This document shows, in pieces, positions 1,231-20,725 of a stretch of 20,725 nucleotides of DNA. This DNA comes from a virus, in the IMG/VR virus record IMGVR_UViG_3300032462_000679, positions 1-20,725 of that record; one strand, given 5' to 3'. The notes under the pieces are model-generated. The model was not told the DNA's origin, made no database searches, and saw nothing but the letters and a program-made list of their open reading frames with translations. The position numbers were made by a program, and so were the translations under genes. Numbering within the stretch: the stretch's first letter is position 1; each line of letters opens with the position of its first letter.

Positions 1231-1959
1231 GTGTTAGAAAACAAATATACTTCCTATTATAATAGTATCATCAACAAAGCTAAAAATCGTCTGACGGATG
1301 GGTATTATGAAACTCATCATATTGTTCCTAAATCATTAGGCGGTAGTAATCTTAAAGAAAATCTTGTCAATTTAACAGCCAGAGAGCATTTTATTTGTCA
1401 TCTTCTCCTTACAAAAATGTACGAAGGTAATGCTAAAAAGAAAATGGTATATGCCGCCTGGGCTATGGCAACTTTAGAAAACAATAATCAACAAAGATAT
1501 AAAATAACATCAAAAATATATGAATCTTTGCGTATCAAATATGCTACTTTAAGATCAAAATCACTCAAAGGTAAACCTGGCAGAAAGCACTCAAAAGAAA
1601 CTAAAATTAAATTATCTTTAGCTCATATGGGTAAGAAAAGAAAACCAATGAGTGAAGAATCTAAAAGAAAACTATCTGAATCTATGAAAGGTAAAAATAT
1701 AGGAAAAAAACGCACAGAAGAACAACGTATAAAACAATCTTTAAGACAACTTGGAAGGAAAGGTAATCCTCATTCTAAAGAAACAAAAGAGAAATTAAGA
1801 TTGGCTAATTTAGGAAAAAAGAAAGGGCCTGATAGTGTAGAAACGAAATTAAAAAAATCAACAGCATTAAAAGGTAGAATTAAATCACCTGAACATATTG
1901 CAAAACAAAGACAATCACTACTCAGATACTACTCAAATAAGAAACAGATGGTTAAATAA
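1231..1959 (+). CDS. Free-standing HNH homing endonuclease with NUMOD3 repeats
   Basis: Residues 25-60 carry an HNH-type core: tandem His 29-30 in ETHHIVPKSLGG, then SNLKENLVNLTAREH with Asn 40/44/47 and His 53/57. From about residue 112 to the end there are five to six repeats of roughly 20 residues of the form SxETKxKLSxxxxGKK, typical of the NUMOD3 DNA-binding module of phage homing endonucleases. Start is the GTG at 1231; the ATG two bases earlier is out of frame and stops at once. There is no ribosome site; a late-type box sits five bases upstream. The gene is rich in AAA/AAT/TTA codons and looks more AT-rich than its neighbours. It lies between two intact genes, so it is inserted and free-standing rather than intron-encoded, and probably promotes its own spread at the terminase locus. 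Confidence 0.88.
   Translation: MLENKYTSYYNSIINKAKNRLTDGYYETHHIVPKSLGGSNLKENLVNLTAREHFICHLLLTKMYEGNAKKKMVYAAWAMATLENNNQQRYKITSKIYESLRIKYATLRSKSLKGKPGRKHSKETKIKLSLAHMGKKRKPMSEESKRKLSESMKGKNIGKKRTEEQRIKQSLRQLGRKGNPHSKETKEKLRLANLGKKKGPDSVETKLKKSTALKGRIKSPEHIAKQRQSLLRYYSNKKQMVK
1952..1958 (+). promoter_or_regulatory. Late-promoter-like box TTAAATA before terminase
   Basis: The sequence TTAAATAATACTATG (1952-1966) ends in the terminase start codon and is identical to 20192-20206 in front of the small membrane protein. TTAAATA keeps the TAAATA core of the T4-type late promoter. The box ends five bases before the ATG and overlaps the stop of the endonuclease gene. Confidence 0.55.
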
Positions 1960-3544: not shown

Positions 3545-6376
3545 ATGAGAGAAATTAACAAAATTGCAGAAGGACTGTTTGAAAAAATCCGTGATAGATT
3601 TGAGGAAGTAAGTCTTGGTGACGAAAACGCTAAAGCCACACAAAACCCCGAAGATGCACGATTTTTTAACTTTGATTACACAGTAGACGGACACAACCAC
3701 GGCAACATCACAATGAGTCTCATTGATGAAACTAGCCTAAAGATATATTTTAGTAAAAATATCAGTGACGACCTTGACGAAGACCATAAAAAAGACTGGT
3801 ACACGTTTTTAAGAGAGCTTCGCGAGTTTGCCCGTAGAAATCTATTGAGCTTTGAACCACGCGACATAACACGAAGCACGCTAAAACATCGAGACATCCA
3901 GCAACAGAGCAAGGCTGACAACACCTACAGCGCAGACGATGTTGTATCCGAAGGCAAAATGTACGGCACAAAGAACCGTAGCTATGAGAGCTTTGGTCCA
4001 GTGCGCATCAAATTACAGCATAGCAAACCCATCGTCGATGAAGTCCATGGCTCCCGTAGCCGCAACATCGACTCGGTGTTCATCGAAAATGTAGAAGGCG
4101 AAAGATTTAAACTTCCGTTCAATAACCTAACAGGTGCACGTGCCATGGCACGACATGTTTCGGCTGGTGGCATTCCCACTGATGAGTTAGGCCAGCATAT
4201 AACTGAAATGGTTGGAGAAATGATGACATTACGCCCTTTCGTCCGCGGGATGTCACGCAGAACATTTGAGGACACTGTCACTCTAGAGATGGTAGAATCA
4301 GCGTTTGGATATCACGGCCTGCTTAAAAATACCCTAAAGAAAATGAAGGGCAAGCGTGGCTACACAGAATTTAAAGAGAACTATACACCTGCTCTGGTAG
4401 AAGATGAAGCGGATATAGCAGATCTAAAAGAATTGTTTGTCAAGAAAACACTTGACGAGCGCATTGAACAAGCACTACCACTCGTACATAAGGCACACAC
4501 GATCATGAGAGAAAACAACAACCCGTTTGCACAACAATTTGAATCCTGGGCACAAAGAGTATCAGAAGGTACTTGGGCGATCCCAGAAACAGAAGAAAAC
4601 ATTGCAAAACTTAACGAATTACTTAAAAAACCATTGCCAGCAGGCGTAGATGGTGCTAATGCTACTGGTGCGTTAGGTGACCTCATTGGTGACGATGTGC
4701 TATGGGACAACATTGGCGATCTAGGAGATATAGATCCAGAAGCAGACACTAGAGGCCTGATTGTACAATGGGTTGATGACAACATGCCAGAAATCATGGA
4801 CCAATTGAAAGGTAAATCAGGATTTGTACAAATGGATGAAGCTACAGATGATGATTATTCAGTACATGTTGGTGCAAAAGATGGATTAGAGATATTTAAA
4901 AACAATGAGCCACAGTATTGTATGAACTGCCATAATCTAAGTCATATGTATGCTGAGATTGCAGATCCAGAAAATCCAACAGATGGATTACCTGAAGGTG
5001 AAGCAGAAGTAGTATGTCCAAATTGCAAAAGCCCATCTTATTTTATTGCTACAGAAAAAGAGATCGAAACATACGGCCCGCCAAAAGATAATATTGAGTT
5101 AGATGAAGCAACAGATGATGACTACGATGCACAAGCAGATCAAGATGCTATGGACTATGAAGCTGACATCAATTTAGGTGATAATGACGATCAGGCTGAT
5201 GCAGTATACGATGCTATCCTTCGACGTTTTCAAGGCAATCTAGATCTAGTTATCAAAGTAGGTGGTCCTCGAGAAACAATGGCCGCTATCCAGGATTACG
5301 TTGACAGCGAAGATTGGAGTGATCTACAAGAGATTGGTTCCAGTGATGTAAGTGCTTGGGTTGATAATATTGTTAAACAACATTCAACCCCTGACAATTT
5401 AGAAAGACTCAAACGCCTAAGTGGAATGGAAGTAAAAGAAGGCAGAATGAAAGAACTACATTATGATTTGGAAAATGCATCAGACGAAGAGTTTGAAAAA
5501 AATTGGAAATCTAAAAAATCAGATTGGCAAGAAGTTAAAACACCAGGACTAGCAAAAGACCCAAACAAACCAGCATACATCGGCAAAATGAAAATGCACG
5601 AAGAGAAACCAGTATACGAAGCACACGAAAAATTAGAAAAACTAGTAGGACAGCGAGTATATGTTAAGAATAAAGGACAAACAGGTACAGTGGATCAAGT
5701 GTCTACTACTCATAGCAACGCCTTAGTAGTTGATATGGATAATGGACAGACTACGGTATCACACTTTACTGATTTAACCAGTGAAGATGAAAAACCTAGC
5801 ACACTCACAAGATATCTTGACATGCTGAAAGACGTATTAGATTTACATGGGCGTGGAGCAGTACATAAGAAAGGCTTACCAGCAAAATCATATGACGCAA
5901 TGGAAGAATCAACAAACGAAACAGAATATCAATTATGGTGGAACGGCGAAGAAATTGATTCTTTTGCCAGTAAAGAAGAAGCTGTAGCAATGCAAAAAGA
6001 ATATGAAATGGCTTATAAAGGTGGCGTTTCAATTAAAAAAGCAAAAGTAAAAGTAGAAGAAGCTAGTGACACACACTGTTCAGATAAATGCTGTGGTAGT
6101 GATGTAAAAGCAGAAGATTGTGGCTGCCCACCAGATTGCCCGCACTGTAATTGTAACGCTAAACTAGATGAAGCAGAAAAATACACACAAGATGACGTCA
6201 ACGCCGCAATTAAAATAGCAAACAGTTCAACAGGTAACATGACAGATGCTGTTGACAGGATTGAATCAATCGAAGATGGATTGTCTGACCAGCCTCAAGT
6301 AGCAGATGCACTTAAAAAGGCAAACGAAAGTGTACAAGAAATGACATCACTTAAGAGATTATCGGGAATTAACTAG
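3545..6376 (+). CDS. Large modular protein, probable packaged head protein (943 aa)
   Basis: Not recognised as a named family. The N-terminus MREINKIAEG resembles the T4 capsid-targeting sequence (cleavage expected after Glu 9). The first ~300 residues look like a conserved folded region. The rest is acidic and modular: two copies of DEATDDDY (431-438 and 520-527) flank a zinc-ribbon-like C459-x2-C462...C491-x2-C494; LKRLSGM is at 622-628; a Cys-rich patch is at 845-870; and the protein ends SLKRLSGIN. Strict [LI]-x-E-[AG] sites, the T4 gp21 protease pattern, occur at Glu 9, 484, 521 and 876. No enzyme motif, signal peptide or membrane segment is visible. The late-type promoter with no ribosome site and the location beside the terminase support a virion role (inference). 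A terminator follows. Confidence 0.85.
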   Translation: MREINKIAEGLFEKIRDRFEEVSLGDENAKATQNPEDARFFNFDYTVDGHNHGNITMSLIDETSLKIYFSKNISDDLDEDHKKDWYTFLRELREFARRNLLSFEPRDITRSTLKHRDIQQQSKADNTYSADDVVSEGKMYGTKNRSYESFGPVRIKLQHSKPIVDEVHGSRSRNIDSVFIENVEGERFKLPFNNLTGARAMARHVSAGGIPTDELGQHITEMVGEMMTLRPFVRGMSRRTFEDTVTLEMVESAFGYHGLLKNTLKKMKGKRGYTEFKENYTPALVEDEADIADLKELFVKKTLDERIEQALPLVHKAHTIMRENNNPFAQQFESWAQRVSEGTWAIPETEENIAKLNELLKKPLPAGVDGANATGALGDLIGDDVLWDNIGDLGDIDPEADTRGLIVQWVDDNMPEIMDQLKGKSGFVQMDEATDDDYSVHVGAKDGLEIFKNNEPQYCMNCHNLSHMYAEIADPENPTDGLPEGEAEVVCPNCKSPSYFIATEKEIETYGPPKDNIELDEATDDDYDAQADQDAMDYEADINLGDNDDQADAVYDAILRRFQGNLDLVIKVGGPRETMAAIQDYVDSEDWSDLQEIGSSDVSAWVDNIVKQHSTPDNLERLKRLSGMEVKEGRMKELHYDLENASDEEFEKNWKSKKSDWQEVKTPGLAKDPNKPAYIGKMKMHEEKPVYEAHEKLEKLVGQRVYVKNKGQTGTVDQVSTTHSNALVVDMDNGQTTVSHFTDLTSEDEKPSTLTRYLDMLKDVLDLHGRGAVHKKGLPAKSYDAMEESTNETEYQLWWNGEEIDSFASKEEAVAMQKEYEMAYKGGVSIKKAKVKVEEASDTHCSDKCCGSDVKAEDCGCPPDCPHCNCNAKLDEAEKYTQDDVNAAIKIANSSTGNMTDAVDRIESIEDGLSDQPQVADALKKANESVQEMTSLKRLSGIN
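4835..5125 (+). repeat. Direct repeat encoding DEATDDDY, flanking a zinc-ribbon-like module
   Basis: Bases 4835-4858 and 5102-5125 encode the same eight residues DEATDDDY with a few silent differences. Between them lies the four-cysteine module (codons at 4919, 4928, 5015, 5024). The arrangement looks like a duplicated linker bordering an inserted domain. Confidence 0.7.
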
Positions 6377-12234: not shown

Positions 12235-12702
12235 ATGTCCGTAGATTTTCAAAAATTAGAAGATTGCCACGTGGTGCATAAACCATGGGGAACAGAAACA
12301 TGGTTACAAGGTGGCGATGATGTTTACCCGTTTGCACTTAAAGAATTACTCCTCAAAGCAGGGTTCGTAACTAGTTTACAAGTGCATCAATTCAAATCAG
12401 AAAGCATACACCTACACATAGGCAATGGTGCGTTAGCATATCATCCAGGCCCGTTTGACTGTGAACGTTTTCTCGCTGGCGGATATACTGTAGAAGAGAT
12501 TGATAAAATTAAAAGCGAATTAATAGTACAGGAACTAGCGCCAGGCGCAGTATTTCATACTCCCCCAGGCACGATACATAGAATGATCGCCCATGACGAT
12601 TTGCATTACACTGAAGCAAGCACTACTCAATTAGATGACGTTATACGTTTAGAAGACTCAAGCAATCGAGGTCATGGGAGGATTGATGCCGAACACAAAT
12701 AA
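12235..12702 (+). CDS. Cupin, sugar isomerase/mannose-6-phosphate isomerase type II-like (155 aa)
   Basis: Single cupin domain. HKPWGTETWL (15-24) and SLQVHQFKSES (47-57) match the HKPWG...SLQxHxxRxE signature of the C-terminal domain of GDP-mannose pyrophosphorylase/phosphomannose isomerase. Candidate metal ligands are His 51, Glu 56, His 108 and His 115 (FHTPPGTIHRM). The C-terminal DDVIRLEDSSNRGHGR recalls the DDVVRLxDxYGR ending of these cupins. It probably binds or isomerises a phosphorylated sugar in the cytoplasm. AAGGGA sits eight bases before the ATG. First gene of the glycan cassette; it overlaps the next gene by 17 bases. Confidence 0.8.
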   Translation: MSVDFQKLEDCHVVHKPWGTETWLQGGDDVYPFALKELLLKAGFVTSLQVHQFKSESIHLHIGNGALAYHPGPFDCERFLAGGYTVEEIDKIKSELIVQELAPGAVFHTPPGTIHRMIAHDDLHYTEASTTQLDDVIRLEDSSNRGHGRIDAEHK

Positions 12703-14311
12703 ACTTACGGTACTAATATTAGCCGCAGGATACGGTCGCAGGATGGGACAGTTCAGCCGCATGGTCCCCAAGGCACTTATACCCTATAACAACAAACCTT
12801 TGATCAGCCACATAATGGAAAAATTTGACATATCTACTAGATTTGTCATAGCGTGCGGCCACATGGGGCAACACGTCAAAGACTATGTTTCAGTGGTCCA
12901 TAAGGATAAAGATATCGTGTTCGTTGACATTGACAACTATGCGGAAGGCGACACCGGACCGGCAACAACAATCCAAATGTGCGAGAAGTATCTCCACGGT
13001 GGGTTCATGTGGTTAGCTTGCGATACTCTATTTGATTTTAATTATAAAGATAAACTAGATCACAACTGGATCGGAGTACATCCAGTGGACGGCGCGATAG
13101 CACAGGATTATCATTGGGTTGAGCGCGATGGCGAGCAGTTAATTAGGATCATAGACAAACAACCTAGCACACATGCTGTTGATGCGTTCGTTGGATTAAT
13201 GTATGCCAAAGACGATGAGTATCTAAGCAATCTTAAAGACAGAAAGGCCAAGCAAACACCAGAAGGCTTTGCAGGCATGGATCTTAAAGTACACTCTATT
13301 AAAGAATGGAAAGACTTTGGCACTTATGAAAAATGGGAAGAACATTCGGCACACTTAACTGATGTTAGTTTTCCTAAGCCAAACGAATTGTTCTATAATG
13401 ATAATAAAAAAATTATTAAATTTTGGACAGAATCTAAACATGCAGATTTACGTGTACAGCGTGCTCTTTGCAATCCAGACGCAATGCCTCACAATGTTGA
13501 ACAATCAGGTAATTTCTTAATACATGATTTTGCTAAAGGTGATATAGTTTATAATCAATATACTCTACCTTTATTTGATAAGATGTTAGATTGGTGCGAA
13601 AAATTGTTATGGAAACCAGCCCCCGACTCAATCACCCAAGAAGACAAATATAAAACATGTTATAAGTTCTACCATGACAAGACCATGGAACGGGTTGACA
13701 TGATACGTGCAAAATACAGTGACTGGTCAGAACCCTGTGTGGTCAACGGCAAGGAAGTGTTAAGTATTGATCAATATCTAGAAAAAATTGATTGGAAATG
13801 GTTATGTACAGAAACCAGTTGGAAGTTTGTACATGGTGATTTACATTTTGACAATACAATATACAAATATTATCCATACACTGGTTCCCCAGACCCTATG
13901 TCTATTATGAACAGGACTTGGTGGGATGAGATTGAAGGTAAAGGCCGTCACGAATTTACCGCAATTGATTGGCGAACAGACTTTGGTGGTGAGCTGTATG
14001 GTGATCAATATTATGACTTAGCTAAGATGTTAGGTGGACTTCATCAGAGTTATAAAGACATCAAGAGTAATTTATACAAGTACAATGAAAAGGATGACTA
14101 CGCTACTATAGAATGTCCGAGTATTGAGAATGTTAAAGAATACGAACTACGATTACAACAGTGGGTTAACGCAAATGGTCTCGATTGGAAGAAAGTTAAA
14201 CTGCTAGTGCCAATCATCTATTTGAACATGAGCCCATTGCACGAAGCACCATTTGACAAGTTCTTGGTAGCCCTAGCACAATTACATTTTTCAAAGGTAT
14301 TAGATGTATAA
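12686..14311 (+). CDS. Bifunctional sugar nucleotidyltransferase-kinase (541 aa)
   Basis: Fusion of two enzymes. Residues 9-30 (LILAAGYGRRMGQFSRMVPK) are the NTP-binding signature of GT-A-type sugar-phosphate nucleotidyltransferases. From about 240 an aminoglycoside-phosphotransferase/choline-kinase-like fold follows, with the catalytic loop HGDLHFDN (383-390; Asp 385, Asn 390), the metal-binding Asp 428 in AIDWR, and GDQYYDLAKMLGG. Together they would phosphorylate a sugar or small alcohol and activate it with a nucleotide, comparable to AmgK/MurU or LicA/LicC pairs. Start: ATG at 12686 with GGGAGG (12676-12681) four bases upstream; the ATG at 12674 would put that site inside the gene. It overlaps the phosphatase gene by eight bases. 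Substrates unknown. Confidence 0.87.
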   Translation: MPNTNKLTVLILAAGYGRRMGQFSRMVPKALIPYNNKPLISHIMEKFDISTRFVIACGHMGQHVKDYVSVVHKDKDIVFVDIDNYAEGDTGPATTIQMCEKYLHGGFMWLACDTLFDFNYKDKLDHNWIGVHPVDGAIAQDYHWVERDGEQLIRIIDKQPSTHAVDAFVGLMYAKDDEYLSNLKDRKAKQTPEGFAGMDLKVHSIKEWKDFGTYEKWEEHSAHLTDVSFPKPNELFYNDNKKIIKFWTESKHADLRVQRALCNPDAMPHNVEQSGNFLIHDFAKGDIVYNQYTLPLFDKMLDWCEKLLWKPAPDSITQEDKYKTCYKFYHDKTMERVDMIRAKYSDWSEPCVVNGKEVLSIDQYLEKIDWKWLCTETSWKFVHGDLHFDNTIYKYYPYTGSPDPMSIMNRTWWDEIEGKGRHEFTAIDWRTDFGGELYGDQYYDLAKMLGGLHQSYKDIKSNLYKYNEKDDYATIECPSIENVKEYELRLQQWVNANGLDWKKVKLLVPIIYLNMSPLHEAPFDKFLVALAQLHFSKVLDV

Positions 14312-14774
14312 AAGATTTATATTAGATGTAGATGGAGTCCTCAATGATGGCATGCTATATTGGGGTGTTGATGGCAAACCATTCAAAGCGTTTGGTAATT
14401 ACGATCATGATGGCCTCAAACAGTTAAGAGAGTTCATTGATATAGAATTTATCTCAGCTGATAAACAAGGCTGGCCAATTACCGAAAGCCGTATAGTACA
14501 ACACATGAAGTTTCCGTTAACGTTAGTTAAAGAAGCAGATAGAAATGCTTTTATTTTAAACAAAGGCAATCCAGAAGAAACAGTGTTTATGGGCGACGGT
14601 CCATATGATGCTATGATATTTCCAAATGTAGGATTAAGTATCGCGCCAGCGCAGGCGTGGAGAACCGCAATAGAAAATGCAGACTATGTAACTCCTCGAG
14701 CGGGGGGTAAAGGCGCAGTATTAGATGCCTGTGTTTATATAATGGATAAGATGGGGATTAAACATGAATTTTAA
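14304..14774 (+). CDS. HAD phosphatase, KdsC-like (156 aa)
   Basis: C0-type HAD phosphatase. The nucleophile motif is ILDVDGVLNDG (Asp 8 and Asp 10), close to KdsC DVDGVLTDG; motif II is ISADKQ (Ser 51); Lys 76 follows; motif III is MGDGPYDAM (Asp 98, Asp 102). The C-terminal GLSIAPAQAW...ADYVTPRAGGKGAVLDAC is characteristic of the KdsC/YrbI group. KdsC removes phosphate from KDO-8-phosphate; related enzymes act on nonulosonic or other sugar phosphates. The absence of a cap domain fits the short length. It overlaps the kinase gene upstream and the aldolase gene downstream by 8 and 11 bases. The substrate is probably the sugar phosphate made or used by its neighbours (inference). Confidence 0.88.
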   Translation: MYKRFILDVDGVLNDGMLYWGVDGKPFKAFGNYDHDGLKQLREFIDIEFISADKQGWPITESRIVQHMKFPLTLVKEADRNAFILNKGNPEETVFMGDGPYDAMIFPNVGLSIAPAQAWRTAIENADYVTPRAGGKGAVLDACVYIMDKMGIKHEF

Positions 14775-15747
14775 ATTAGGGTTTGGCCCAATGAGCCGCG
14801 AAGTTATAACTTCAATAGCAACCTATTCTAAAGAAAAGAACGAGCCATTGATGCTGATAGCCAGCCGAAATCAAGTTGACGCTGAGTCGGGCTATGTTAT
14901 GACAACCCCCGAACTGCGACAGTTATTGTCTACACTGCCAACAGAGAACTTATGGATATGCCGCGATCATTGTGGACCATACTTCCTAGACGTTGAGAAG
15001 GGATTACCTTTGCGTGATGCAGTAGAAGCTAGCAAGAAAACTATTGCATACGATATAGAACAGGGATTTGACCTAATACACATTGATACTTCACGTGTAG
15101 ACGATACCTATGGAATCGCAGAAGAATTATTTGATTTTTCTTATAAGAAGAACCCCAATGTGCGCTTTGAGTTCGGCACTGAAGAGAACGTGGGGGTGGC
15201 CGCTGGCATAATACAGTATAAGAAAGATGTCGCGTTTGCCAAGAACATGCCAAACATATACACAGTGGTAGCACAGACAGGAAGCCTATGCCATGAGGAT
15301 CATCAACACGGTGAATTTAATTATCAAGCCGCCATTGAGCTAGTACAAGTCGCCAATGAAAATGGCGTTAAACTGAAAGAACACAACGCAGACTACCTGA
15401 CAGCCGCAGAAGTAAGAATGAGAAAAGATGCCGGAGTGCATACCTTAAACATAGCACCACAGTTAGGAGTAGCACAAACTAAATTGTTAAGAGTGTTAAG
15501 CAGTAAGCATGCCCCCAACGAATGGCAACAGTTTGCTGACGTGGTATTAGCAAGCGGTAAATGGTCAAAATGGACTGATCTCGTTGACCCCACACAGAAG
15601 GTTAGCGTAGCAGGACACTACTGTTACAGTTCTCCAGAATATCAAACGTTAATTAACAAATTAATCAATGCAGGTGTTAACTGGCAACAAGAAGTTGACT
15701 CTGTAATATATGACATCCTTGGCACGTACACTGTAAATCTTAGATGA
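14764..15747 (+). CDS. GatZ/KbaZ-like aldolase family protein (327 aa)
   Basis: TIM-barrel protein related to the so-called non-catalytic subunit of class II tagatose-bisphosphate aldolase. Matches to E. coli GatZ include ASRNQVDAESGY-MTTPELR (GatZ: NQVNQFGGYTGMTPADFR), ICRDHCGP (GatZ GGDHLGP), GFDLIHIDTS (GFSKIHLDAS), FEFGTEENVG (VIGTEVPVP) and LKEHNADYLT (YEAHSTDYQT). It is shorter than GatZ (about 420 aa), and no GatY/KbaY partner is encoded in the window, so it may act alone in making or cleaving a sugar phosphate. GGGGAT precedes the ATG, and the start overlaps the HAD gene by 11 bases. The aldolase, HAD phosphatase and kinase-nucleotidyltransferase form a plausible sugar-activation route. 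Confidence 0.85.
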   Translation: MNFKLGFGPMSREVITSIATYSKEKNEPLMLIASRNQVDAESGYVMTTPELRQLLSTLPTENLWICRDHCGPYFLDVEKGLPLRDAVEASKKTIAYDIEQGFDLIHIDTSRVDDTYGIAEELFDFSYKKNPNVRFEFGTEENVGVAAGIIQYKKDVAFAKNMPNIYTVVAQTGSLCHEDHQHGEFNYQAAIELVQVANENGVKLKEHNADYLTAAEVRMRKDAGVHTLNIAPQLGVAQTKLLRVLSSKHAPNEWQQFADVVLASGKWSKWTDLVDPTQKVSVAGHYCYSSPEYQTLINKLINAGVNWQQEVDSVIYDILGTYTVNLR

Positions 15748-16835
15748 TCGTATTATTCAATGTAAAAATAACTGACATCAAAATGTCATATCCTTATGCT
15801 GGTACAACCTATGTACGAGCACCATGGTTCCCTGTAAGTAATAGATTTGACATCTTTAAATATTGTTTGGCTAGTCGTGCCGTGATGTCACCAGTTGTAG
15901 ACAAATTTGTGTTCTATATTGATCTAGCCGAATTTAGTCCCCGCAGGGAAGAGCTAGAAGAATACATGTATTCCATATTTCCCAAAGATAAATTAGAACT
16001 CAATTGGTATAGGATTGACAGTACACAAAAATGGCGAGCTCTTTGTGATGAAAGATTTGCTGATGACGATCAATTGGTCTGGTATGAAGGCAATGATGAT
16101 CATATCTTTATAGACAGTAATTTGGACATGATACGTGCAAGCATCGCAACATTAAATGCTGACCCCGATCCGTTGGCAGTTATGTATTATAGCCATTGGC
16201 CTGAACAGATGCGTATGAGTTTAGCCCTCAACGGTGAACTAACTGAAGACGGAAATTTTATTAAATTCCAATGGGACACTGTTGATTCACTCTTACTAAT
16301 GAAAGCTGGTAGATTTAAAAAGTATTGGTTTGATACAGATTGCGGTGAGGACAGCATGTATCGTTCCGACCCATTGGGGTGGCATTATGGATTTAAAATA
16401 CCTGGCACAGTGTACTCCCCTACTAAAGAATTGATCCGACACTATGATGGCTACAGCCACGTTGGTGAACTGTTGGGTACTATTGCACCTCCATTGTTCG
16501 TACCACCAGGGTTTTTAGAAAAAGATATGAAAATACGTATTGGGTATCCGGAACGTAAAGACGGGTGGACTAATTTATATTCTGCCGCAGAAAGATTACA
16601 CAGTGTTGACCCACATGGAGTAGAACATCGTTGGTGCATTGAGGACCTTCCAATGTTTTGGCACCCATATACAACAGAAGTAGACGTTAACCTTAATCAG
16701 GATATCCAGACATTAAAACAGGCACGCAATTCAGCAATGTTGGCCATGACTAGAATTCCAATGAACGCCCATGGGCATGTGTTTAATTATGAATGCCACC
16801 CAGCAGAATTTTTTACTAAACATTTATTAACATAG
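15744..16835 (+). CDS. Glycosyltransferase-like protein (363 aa)
   Basis: Start ATG at 15744 overlaps the aldolase stop by four bases. The sequence looks like a GT-A-type or GT-related fold: an N-terminal alpha/beta region (FDIFKYCLASRAV, VDKFVFYIDL), then LVWYEGNDDHIFIDSNLDMIR with an acidic DDH/D-S-N segment that could be the metal/nucleotide site, and a later FDTDCGEDSMYRSDPLGWHYGF. No signal peptide or membrane segment, so it would act in the cytoplasm. Family assignment rests on general pattern and cassette context rather than on a diagnostic motif; a hypothetical protein of another fold is possible. Confidence 0.55.
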   Translation: MIVLFNVKITDIKMSYPYAGTTYVRAPWFPVSNRFDIFKYCLASRAVMSPVVDKFVFYIDLAEFSPRREELEEYMYSIFPKDKLELNWYRIDSTQKWRALCDERFADDDQLVWYEGNDDHIFIDSNLDMIRASIATLNADPDPLAVMYYSHWPEQMRMSLALNGELTEDGNFIKFQWDTVDSLLLMKAGRFKKYWFDTDCGEDSMYRSDPLGWHYGFKIPGTVYSPTKELIRHYDGYSHVGELLGTIAPPLFVPPGFLEKDMKIRIGYPERKDGWTNLYSAAERLHSVDPHGVEHRWCIEDLPMFWHPYTTEVDVNLNQDIQTLKQARNSAMLAMTRIPMNAHGHVFNYECHPAEFFTKHLLT

Positions 16836-17976: not shown

Positions 17977-19263
17977 ATGGATTATAAAATTAAAGATATA
18001 GAATTAGCAGGGTGGGGGCATAAAGAAATCGCCATTGCAGAGACTGAAATGCCTGGTTTGATAGCTGTTAGAGACGAATTTAAGGGAAAACAACCACTCA
18101 AAGGTGCTCGTATTACAGGTAGCTTACACATGACAGTACAAACTGCTGTGCTAGTTGAAACTTTAATTGCTCTAGGTGCAAGTGTACGATGGAGCTCATG
18201 TAACATATACTCCACACAGGATCATGCCGCGGCTGCATTGGCTGAACAGGGTATTCCTGTGTTTGCTTGGAAAGGTGAAACAGAACAAGAATACTGGTGG
18301 TGTATAGAACAAACGCTGGAAGGCCCAGATGGTTGGAAGCCAAACATATTGCTAGATGACGGACACGACCTAACTGGGTATATCATGGACAAGCGTCCAG
18401 ACTTGTTAGACGGTATTGTGGGTGTAACAGAAGAAACTACAACGGGCATACACAAGATACTAGAACGCATCGAAGCAGGCACAATGCTAATGCCAGCTAT
18501 CAATGTTAACGATAGCGTAACTAAATCAAAATTTGATAACTTGTATGGTTGCCGTGAAAGTTTAGTTGATGGTATCAAACGTGCCACTGACGTGATGATA
18601 GCAGGTAAGACTGCTGTGGTATGTGGCTATGGTGATGTTGGCAAGGGTTCAGCACAAGCACTAGCCGCCCTGTCAGCTCAAGTATGGGTAACTGAAGTAG
18701 ATCCAATCTGTGCCTTACAAGCCGCAATGGAAGGCTTCAAAGTAGTTACTATGGATTATGCTAAAGATAAAGCAGACATCTTTGTAACAGCAACAGGCAA
18801 CATTGATATTATTACTAGAGAACACATGCTAGCTATGAAACACAATGCTATCGTATGCAACATTGGACACTTTGACTCTGAAATAGACATCGCTGGTATA
18901 CAAGATTTAGATTGGGACGAGATTAAACCACAAGTGGATCATGTAACACTACCAAATGGTAACAAGATTATTGTGTTGGCTAAGGGTAGATTAATTAACC
19001 TAGGTTGTGCAACAGGGCATCCAAGTTATGTTATGTCAAACTCATTTACTAATCAAGTGCTAGCACAGATAGAACTGTTTAATAATCCTAACAACTACGA
19101 AACAGGTAAACTGTATCTCTTGCCTAAGCACCTAGATGAAAAAGTAGCAGAACTACATCTGGCTAAAGTGGGTGCGGAGTTGACTAAACTGTCTAAAGCA
19201 CAAGCGGACTATATTGGCGTTAGTACTACAGGGCCATTTAAAGTAGATACCTACAGATACTAG
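17977..19263 (+). CDS. ahcY: S-adenosyl-L-homocysteine hydrolase (428 aa)
   Basis: Splits S-adenosylhomocysteine into adenosine and homocysteine with bound NAD, relieving product inhibition of methyltransferases. Family landmarks are all present: HMTVQTAVL (His 51), [15 protein letters not shown] (Cys 75), [21 protein letters not shown] (Glu 152), [19 protein letters not shown] (Lys 183, Asp 187, Cys 192), the NAD motif [10 protein letters not shown] (217-226), [14 protein letters not shown] and the conserved C-terminal FKVDTYRY. It appears full length and lacks the extra ~40-residue insertion of many bacterial forms. ATAGGAAAA precedes the ATG. As a host-type metabolic gene in a phage it is an auxiliary metabolic gene, possibly paired with the methyltransferase at 9432. 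Confidence 0.97.
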
Positions 19264-19271
19264 TATAAATA
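19264..19271 (+). promoter_or_regulatory. Perfect T4-type late promoter box TATAAATA
   Basis: TATAAATA matches the T4 late consensus at all eight positions and begins immediately after the ahcY stop codon. The predicted start near 19277 leaves a leader of about 26 bases with an AGGAAA ribosome site before the porin ATG at 19303. Confidence 0.75.
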
Positions 19272-19275
19272 TTAG

Positions 19276-19285
19276 GTAATATTAC
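19276..19285 (+). repeat. Palindrome GTAATATTAC at the porin promoter
   Basis: A perfect 10-bp palindrome lies at the predicted transcription start of the porin gene. It could be a protein-binding site or a chance AT-rich sequence. Confidence 0.35.
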
Positions 19286-19302
19286 TTAGGAAAATAATAA
19301 TA

Positions 19303-20073
19303 ATGAAACAAGTTCTATTAGCAACACTCTTAGCAACATCAACTCTATATGCAGTAGAAGAAACAACTGCTCCTTTAGACATATCCTTAGGTGAACTTTC
19401 AGGATCCGTTGGGGTTTATTCAGAATACCTATTCCGCGGGCTGAAACAGACTGCTGGGGATCCAGCATTACAAGCAAACATAGATTACACATTAGATAAT
19501 GGTCTTTATGTAGGTGCTTGGATTTCAAACACTAAGTGGACAGAAGATGGCGGTTATATGAATAACAATGATGTTGAAACTAACATCTATGCAGGTTACG
19601 CTGACACATTTGGTGACACAGGCATTGGTTATGACGTTGGTGTGTTACAGTACTGGTTCCCAGGCAATACAACAAACGGGCAATCAGGAACAGATACAAC
19701 AGAGTTATACGCTGGTGTTAACAAAGATGTTTTTGGTACTAACATAGCACTTAAATACTCACATGCAATCACAGAAGATGTGTTTGGCATTGGTAATGCT
19801 AGCGGTAGTGACTATACCGAAGTTAATTGGACAGTTCCAGTAACAGAACAGTTAACAGCAATAGCACACGTGGGACGTAGTACATTTGATGGACTAGGTA
19901 ATGGCGTGTATGATTATACAGATTCCAAAGTAAGTTTAGAATATGCGTACACTGATGCTGTTACAGTAGGTGCTGGTTACTCAATGACTAACGCGTCTGA
20001 AGCAAACTGGACTATTAAAAATGAATACTTAGGTGAGTCACAAGCACTTGCTTGGTTAACATATTCATTCTAA
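19303..20073 (+). CDS. TorF-family putative porin, outer-membrane protein (256 aa)
   Basis: A Sec signal peptide is clear: MKQVLLATLLATSTLYA, with cleavage likely before VEE (residue 18). The mature start GSVGVYSEYLFRGLKQTAGDPALQ is typical of the TIGR02001/Gcw_chp (TorF) group, as are NGLYVGAWISNTKW and the repeated amphipathic strands (TNIYAGYA, TELYAGVN, KVSLEYAYTDAVTVGAGYS). It ends LAWLTYSF with the C-terminal Phe recognised by the BAM machinery. It should form a beta-barrel in the host outer membrane. Ribosome site AGGAAA (19287-19292). It has a late phage promoter upstream and a terminator downstream, forming its own transcription unit. A host-type outer-membrane protein in a phage is unusual. 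Confidence 0.9.
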   Translation: MKQVLLATLLATSTLYAVEETTAPLDISLGELSGSVGVYSEYLFRGLKQTAGDPALQANIDYTLDNGLYVGAWISNTKWTEDGGYMNNNDVETNIYAGYADTFGDTGIGYDVGVLQYWFPGNTTNGQSGTDTTELYAGVNKDVFGTNIALKYSHAITEDVFGIGNASGSDYTEVNWTVPVTEQLTAIAHVGRSTFDGLGNGVYDYTDSKVSLEYAYTDAVTVGAGYSMTNASEANWTIKNEYLGESQALAWLTYSF

Positions 20074-20086
20074 ATTATTTAGAACT

Positions 20087-20114
20087 AAAGGCACTCTACG
20101 GAGTGCTTTTTTTT
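20087..20114 (+). terminator. Rho-independent terminator after the porin gene
   Basis: GCACTC (20091-20096) pairs with GAGTGC (20101-20106) around a TACG loop, extended by a G-T and three A-T pairs, and ends in eight T residues (20107-20114). Confidence 0.93.
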
Positions 20115-20168
20115 GGCTAACAGTTCTTGAATTATCTGCAAAACTGTAATCGTTTTGTAATCTTTAGG

Positions 20169-20177
20169 TGTTATAAT
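20169..20177 (+). promoter_or_regulatory. Extended -10 promoter TGTTATAAT
   Basis: TGTTATAAT has the TG-n-TATAAT form of an extended -10 sigma-70 promoter; no good -35 is seen at 17 bases. The predicted start is near 20184, upstream of the small membrane protein gene. Confidence 0.5.
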
Positions 20178-20191
20178 TTAGTTTTAATAGA

Positions 20192-20198
20192 TTAAATA
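20192..20198 (+). promoter_or_regulatory. Late-promoter-like box TTAAATA
   Basis: TTAAATAATACTATG (20192-20206) is identical to the sequence at the terminase start. The box ends five bases before the ATG at 20204, and no ribosome site is present. Confidence 0.5.
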
Positions 20199-20203
20199 AT
20201 ACT

Positions 20204-20413
20204 ATGAAACGACTACTGTCACGTACTGTACTTTGGTTTTGCATCTTACTATTCTTTGCGATATGGTATCAAATCATATCTAAAATTGCATGCAACTTTG
20301 TATGCCAGGATGAGTCTGAACAAGTGCAAGAAGAAGTTGTTGATTATGAAAACATGTCGCCAGAAGAACTCCAAGCGGCATTTCTAAAACTACAAAAGAA
20401 GAGACAAGAATGA
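20204..20413 (+). CDS. Small single-TM membrane protein (69 aa)
   Basis: One hydrophobic segment (about residues 8-27, TVLWFCILLFFAIWYQIISK) follows a short basic N-terminus, so it is probably anchored in the inner membrane. The C-terminal part is acidic and then helical (MSPEELQAAFLKLQKKRQE). Two cysteines (CNFVC) lie just after the membrane segment. It overlaps the following secreted-protein gene by four bases (ATGA), so the two are coupled. It resembles small host membrane proteins; an i-spanin role was considered, but the overlapping partner lacks a lipobox. Confidence 0.7.
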   Translation: MKRLLSRTVLWFCILLFFAIWYQIISKIACNFVCQDESEQVQEEVVDYENMSPEELQAAFLKLQKKRQE

Positions 20414-20725
20414 AAAAAATAATAACTGTAGCAATAGCAGTAGCTCTAACATTACCATTACAGGCAGTAGAAAAAGCTGGATACTATTCAGGTATTAAAT
20501 TAGGTGTAGAAGAAAGCAATACTGGCGGAAGTGATAGTACTCAATGGGCAATGACATTTGGTAAGCACATTAACAACTATATTGACGCTGAACTGTACAC
20601 AAGAACAAAAGACAAAGACTCTGGCGGAAATGACACAAGAGTAGAAGCGGCAGTGATTGGCAAGTACAAACTAACAGATGATTGGTCAACTAGTCTTAGA
20701 GTTGGCGCTGGTAACAAGTACACAC
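20410..20725 (+). CDS. Secreted beta-barrel-like outer-membrane protein, 3' end missing
   Basis: The ATG at 20410 overlaps the previous stop. The frame is open to the window end (105 codons seen). MKKIITVAIAVALTLPLQA is a typical Sec signal peptide with cleavage likely before VEK; no lipobox cysteine. The mature part has alternating-hydrophobicity strands with Gly and aromatic residues (GYYSGIKLGVEES, TQWAMTFGKHINNYIDAELYTR, TRVEAAVIGKYKLTDDW, TSLRVGAGNKYT) separated by polar Gly/Asp/Ser turns, as in small outer-membrane barrels. It is a second envelope protein in the same region as the porin. Exact family cannot be set from the partial sequence. Confidence 0.75.
   Translation, partial: MKKIITVAIAVALTLPLQAVEKAGYYSGIKLGVEESNTGGSDSTQWAMTFGKHINNYIDAELYTRTKDKDSGGNDTRVEAAVIGKYKLTDDWSTSLRVGAGNKYT

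Follow-up and report, generated by a model that had tools for sequence, protein, structure and literature searches.

The end of a 20.7 kb IMG/VR virus record (IMGVR_UViG_3300032462_000679, analyzed over all 20,725 nucleotides and called the window here) encodes a porin of the TorF family that appears to descend from the nitrogen-starvation operon of Methylophilaceae and to have been moved behind a phage late-type promoter. The best reading of this gene, held with about as much confidence as doubt, is that it provides a nitrogen-linked nutrient channel under phage control and is one of several swappable porins. It lies in a cargo slot that opens after an S-adenosylhomocysteine hydrolase (SAHH) gene, and is followed by a second unit encoding a protein with one transmembrane helix (one-TM protein) and a second barrel:

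17977 to 19263, plus strand: SAHH gene (PF05221, E 1e-127), left border of the cargo slot
19264 to 19271, plus strand: TATAAATA, late-type promoter box, directly after the SAHH stop and 31 nt before the porin start codon
19303 to 20073, plus strand: TorF/Gcw_chp-family porin, 256 aa (PF09694, TIGR02001), with signal peptide and a predicted 12-strand barrel
20087 to 20110, plus strand: intrinsic terminator, a 10-pair stem then eight T
20169 to 20177, plus strand: extended -10 promoter-like site TGTTATAAT, a consensus match only, at chance frequency
20204 to 20413, plus strand: 69-aa protein with one N-terminal transmembrane helix, of no known family
20410 to 20725, plus strand: second secreted outer-membrane beta-barrel (small OMP), first 105 aa, truncated at the window end

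The porin with its signal peptide, C-terminal Phe, upstream box and downstream hairpin, and the one-TM protein and second signal-peptide barrel behind it, are present as the original prediction described them. The porin matches PF09694 (E 1.6e-39, 136.7 bits against a curated cut-off of 24) and TIGR02001 (E 1.3e-38, 132.9 bits against 47.15) over its full length. Its N-terminus (MKQVLLATLLATSTLYA) and its C-terminus (...LTYSF, ending in Phe) read as the signal peptide and last residue of a secreted outer-membrane beta-barrel, and the signal peptide, MKQVLLATLLATSTLYA-VEE, lacks the lipobox cysteine of a superinfection-exclusion lipoprotein of the Llp/Cor type. An AlphaFold2 model built from 37 aligned sequences (pLDDT 91.7) has twelve strands. 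No sequence match to the porin was found in the PDB by sequence search, and no PHROG family matches either it or the second barrel. Among solved structures, KdgM (Z 17.4) and NanC (Z 17.1), both monomeric specific porins, come nearest to the model, with rmsd values of 2.3-2.8 over 168-191 residues at 10-13% identity, followed by FapF, the COG4313 channel and Tsx. KdgM and NanC offer the closest solved fold, a monomeric 12-strand porin, but their substrates differ (oligogalacturonate and sialic acid). The dN/dS values of 0.07-0.3 correspond to purifying selection and argue against decay, although the TorF pair, with a dS of 1.2, comes close to saturation. The computed picture is of a predicted secreted, intact and conserved channel of nitrogen-operon ancestry.

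The window also carries genes for a large terminase, a gp32-like ssDNA-binding protein and UvsX, and a nucleotidyl-/sugar-type gene set. The best terminase matches in the phage collection are PA5oct-group jumbo phages, at 55% identity, and viral contigs related to the window reach 354 kb. Porin_4 proteins of sister phages share 64-68% identity with porins from Methylophilaceae of ~1.3 Mb, and the second barrel matches a protein from such a genome at 31.7%, so that a streamlined Methylophilaceae host is likely. The phage itself belongs with the large, jumbo-related, T4-like phages. Upstream of SAHH (window 12235-16835) lie NTP-transferase, HAD phosphatase-like and GatZ/KbaZ-like genes in an order common to only ~5 related contigs, which looks like a sugar-nucleotide or surface-modification cluster. 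A free-standing ORF directly 5' of the terminase gene (window 1231-1959), which many relatives lack, resembles the HNH/NUMOD-type homing endonuclease encoded at 4757-5341 of a second viral contig, L384.

That the cassette sits inside a phage genome, as the original prediction had assumed, is concluded with high confidence. L384 opens with the same 69 bases that close the window, an exact match; it completes the second barrel and runs on within 100 nt into the genes for the sliding clamp gp45, the clamp loader (gp44 and gp62) and RegA. The join rests on this 69-base overlap, and the two are taken to be the same or nearly identical phages. Phage genes also lie to the left of the cassette. The closest porin homolog in any collection, at 57% identity, is in a phage contig (L341), where an ATAAATA box again precedes the gene by ~35 nt, and the closest cellular copies are only 42-43% identical. 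Host sequence joined onto the end of a phage contig by the assembly would account for cassette genes at a contig end and for a sister contig (L002) without them, but it is hardly credible given that L384 links the same barrel to core phage replication genes, that a phage motif is located at the junction, and that no cellular copy is nearer than those at 42-43%.

The exact TATAAATA box occurs once in the window, below the 2.1 copies expected by chance. This count alone is uninformative, and the 7-mer core ATAAATA was therefore tested against permuted controls. The core is found six times on the plus strand of the window and never on the minus strand, with five of the six copies in the 3% that is intergenic. 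Across nine lineage contigs, a gene start follows 28 of the 37 copies at a distance of 7-130 nt; when five A and two T are put in any other order the share is 5-31%, so the motif is real. Judged by its placement, it behaves as would be expected of a T4-type late promoter. The terminator stretch behind the porin has a predicted folding energy of -15.4 kcal/mol (z -3.6). Phage promoters had been proposed for all of these genes, and this holds for the porin and its late-type box; the second unit has no late box, and its sole promoter-like site is the chance-frequency extended -10.

The origin of the porin was traced in a tree of 118 TorF proteins, with SH-aLRT support from a quick search. The window and L341 porins are sisters (99) that adjoin Methylophilaceae AH-578 (95) inside a Methylophilaceae clade (99). 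Of the 80 best-scoring cellular relatives, torF adjoins glnK and/or amtB in 66, in almost all cases with these genes immediately downstream, and 52 of 65 such loci have a sigma-54 -24/-12 site matching at least nine of ten consensus bases, a score reached by 0.6% of shuffles and by none of 61 control stretches. In the printed examples this site lies 57-95 nt before torF, and the four Methylophilaceae copies shown are perfect. Because of this neighborhood and promoter, cellular torF would be part of a nitrogen-starvation operon, a role read from genomic context; the literature searched named no solute for a TorF porin. The phage porin shares with the TorF of the cellular torF-glnK-amtB operon of Methylophilaceae and other Betaproteobacteria (L261, L262, L276) a subclade, a signal peptide, a barrel and full-length homology at 38-44% identity. 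Unlike in that operon, the phage gene stands alone behind a late-type box. Other genes, and neither glnK nor amtB, adjoin it in the window and L384, and no -24/-12 site was found within 300 nt upstream of the window or L341 copy. No amtB was found in 21 related records searched, L342 excepted, and no glnK in the lineage loci examined. The L342 contig, labeled viral and carrying torF-glnK-amtB, was set aside as probably bacterial DNA or a prophage flank. By these comparisons, the phage copy appears to have lost its glnK/amtB neighbors and sigma-54 promoter and to have gained a late box.

Under the favored nutrient-channel reading, the cassette would be host-derived outer-membrane cargo in a T4-like phage infecting streamlined Methylophilaceae, and the source of its first gene would be the channel of the host torF-glnK-amtB operon. 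The phage would have kept the channel only, dropped the nitrogen-controlled sigma-54 promoter, and given the gene a phage late promoter in front and a terminator of its own behind. The porin would then be expressed in the late phase, exported by Sec and inserted in the outer membrane by Bam, where it may widen the entry of a nitrogen-linked small solute, most likely ammonium or methylammonium, that the host's own AmtB would carry over the inner membrane. The benefit would be nutrients that keep flowing into the infected cell, with a gain in nitrogen supply. Against this reading, a gene switched on by a late promoter has little time in which to bring a metabolic benefit, unless the late phase of infection is a long one.

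SAHH has 71 viral relatives (92-93% identity in L002 and L026) and is common in related phage contigs. As a rule, a small conserved gene (MFDSIEIRK...) and an epimerase delimit the slot 3' of SAHH in these relatives. In the window's phage, gp45 takes the place of the epimerase behind the slot. The cargo varies between a small OMP (PF13505), Porin_4, peroxiredoxin, other enzymes or nothing, and also includes Porin_4 with PstS and/or phosphate-selective Porin_O_P with a metallophosphatase. A TorF of separate origin occupies the corresponding region of L205. Several slots retain the TATAAATA box, 38 nt downstream of the SAHH stop. Loci anchored on the epimerase, and hence not selected for barrels, have a barrel gene within 6 kb in 19 of 32 cases, an approximate fraction since some loci are near-duplicates, and some of these barrels lie beside PstS and a metallophosphatase. 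The porin, PstS and phosphate-selective porin of sister slots give this position the look of an exchangeable nutrient-channel locus. The mixed cargo of other sisters (peroxiredoxin, a formate dehydrogenase-like molybdopterin oxidoreductase, other enzymes) means that not all of it concerns nutrient entry through the outer membrane. A broader proposal, put forward tentatively, is that this Methylophilaceae T4-like lineage has a dedicated late-expressed slot in which channels for limiting nutrients (TorF for nitrogen, Porin_O_P with PstS for phosphate, a general porin) would be swapped according to habitat and would remodel the outer-membrane permeability of the infected cell.

The slots of L180 (2716-7777), L190 and L186 contain Porin_4, Porin_O_P, a calcineurin-like phosphoesterase and a PstS-family protein, with PstS and porin apparently fused or truncated in L186. 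In L209 a calcineurin-like phosphoesterase is paired with a GT4 glycosyltransferase, perhaps for PlcP/Agt-type lipid remodeling under phosphate limitation. The slot after SAHH in L026 (11310-12491) has, behind a ATATAAATA box, an open fragment of 394 aa whose domains (Fer2, NADH-G and molybdopterin) are typical of an NAD-dependent formate dehydrogenase alpha subunit, which fits a methylotroph host; the contig ends soon after the fragment, so a chimera is possible.

Porins are common phage receptors. Barrels made late could consequently replace or mask the receptor, leading to superinfection exclusion or keeping progeny from adsorbing to debris, with their exchange reflecting competition for receptors. 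Both the late-type promoter and the swapping of slot barrels among sister phages fit this explanation. It is nonetheless unlikely, since the porin descends from a nitrogen-operon clade, barrels in sister slots are paired with PstS and a phosphate-selective porin, and dN/dS (0.07-0.3) gives no sign of diversifying selection over whole genes. The functions preferred by the original prediction, namely receptor masking, permeability before lysis and cargo for the virion, find no specific support here; the neighborhood and sigma-54 promoter of the relatives, the phylogeny, and the PstS and phosphate porins carried by sister phages favor nutrient uptake over these.

The second unit is best explained as contributing a small OMP from the same Methylophilaceae host lineage as the porin. 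As completed by L384, the second barrel is 188 aa long and ends in Phe. Its first 105 aa align by hhalign with the OMP196 family of sister phages (probability 92.8, E 4e-7), and the full-length protein does so with E 5e-28. Its start overlaps the one-TM gene by 4 bases. The one-TM protein (hydropathy peak 2.0 over 19 residues), for which no relative was found in any related locus fetched, could be a translationally coupled inner-membrane partner. Such a partner would suit a mechanism in which late over-production of open barrels raises permeability or loads Bam and thereby helps lysis, as would the late promoter, the 4-base overlap and the lysis role proposed for the phage-encoded CsgG of methylophage Melnitz (PMC9004378). 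A contribution of this kind is very unlikely, because the predicted porin fold is a narrow, substrate-specific channel and the one-TM gene was found in no related locus.

TorF is rare in this phage lineage: 100 related records have no copy, and a further 48, some of them shared with the 100, have two. This rarity would fit genes captured recently, conferring no benefit and heading for loss. That explanation is improbable, as the porin has an intact frame, promoter and terminator, selection has been retained, its ancestor is shared with a second phage contig at 57% identity, and a TorF of separate origin occurs in the slot of L205. Scanning viral contigs with the single porin sequence, which detects close relatives only, gave no match, and an alignment scan found TorF relatives in 39. 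Other viral contigs hold more distant TorF clades, and ten of these contigs have a terminase scoring above the cut-off. At least two deeply separate clades can be distinguished (L345, L347 and L351-L356; L343 and L349-L379). The four phage-collection matches belong to "Acinetobacter phage MD-2021a" contigs and were not counted as phage evidence; the one opened contains catechol-degradation genes and looks like mislabeled bacterial DNA.

Most nutrient genes known from phages work within the cell or at its inner membrane. If the exchangeable outer-membrane channel locus is real, phages would also control what crosses the outer membrane of the infected cell, and the flow of carbon and nitrogen through streamlined aquatic methylotrophs could be affected. 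The apparent exchange of a nitrogen-starvation promoter for a late promoter would offer a direct test case of a virus removing a host gene from host control, and the phage porins are named, testable candidates for the question of what TorF proteins carry.

Host-type barrels had been thought to be rarely described in phages, a view contradicted by the 39 viral contigs with TorF relatives, by the phage OMPs and porins annotated in a library of predicted viral protein structures, and by viral glnK-amtB-ompL contigs from the Pacific oxygen minimum zone, whose porin is Bacteroidetes-derived and OmpL-like (PMC8115048). The latter also encode an outer-membrane porin linked to ammonium transport, whereas the porin described here is a Methylophilaceae TorF without glnK/amtB in a jumbo-related T4-like phage. 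The CsgGF pores of methylophage Melnitz and pelagimyophages (PMC9004378, PMC7029224) are likewise outer-membrane pores encoded by T4-like phages whose hosts are streamlined aquatic bacteria, among them Methylophilales, but CsgGF is a curli secretion pore of an unrelated family and TorF belongs to a solute porin family. Phage-borne porins as such were already known, and the literature searched for them yielded no cases beyond those cited here; what is new is the TorF family in a phage, the exchange of promoters and a slot that holds one or another barrel. In L372-L375, a CsgG gene is found 1-2 kb away from TorF. The fiber genes csgA and csgB are said to be missing from published phage curli loci (PMC9004378, PMC7029224), and in L341 (13707-15750) the CsgF (PF10614) and CsgG (PF03783) genes precede one for a secreted protein of 257 aa that has curlin-like repeats and no Pfam match.
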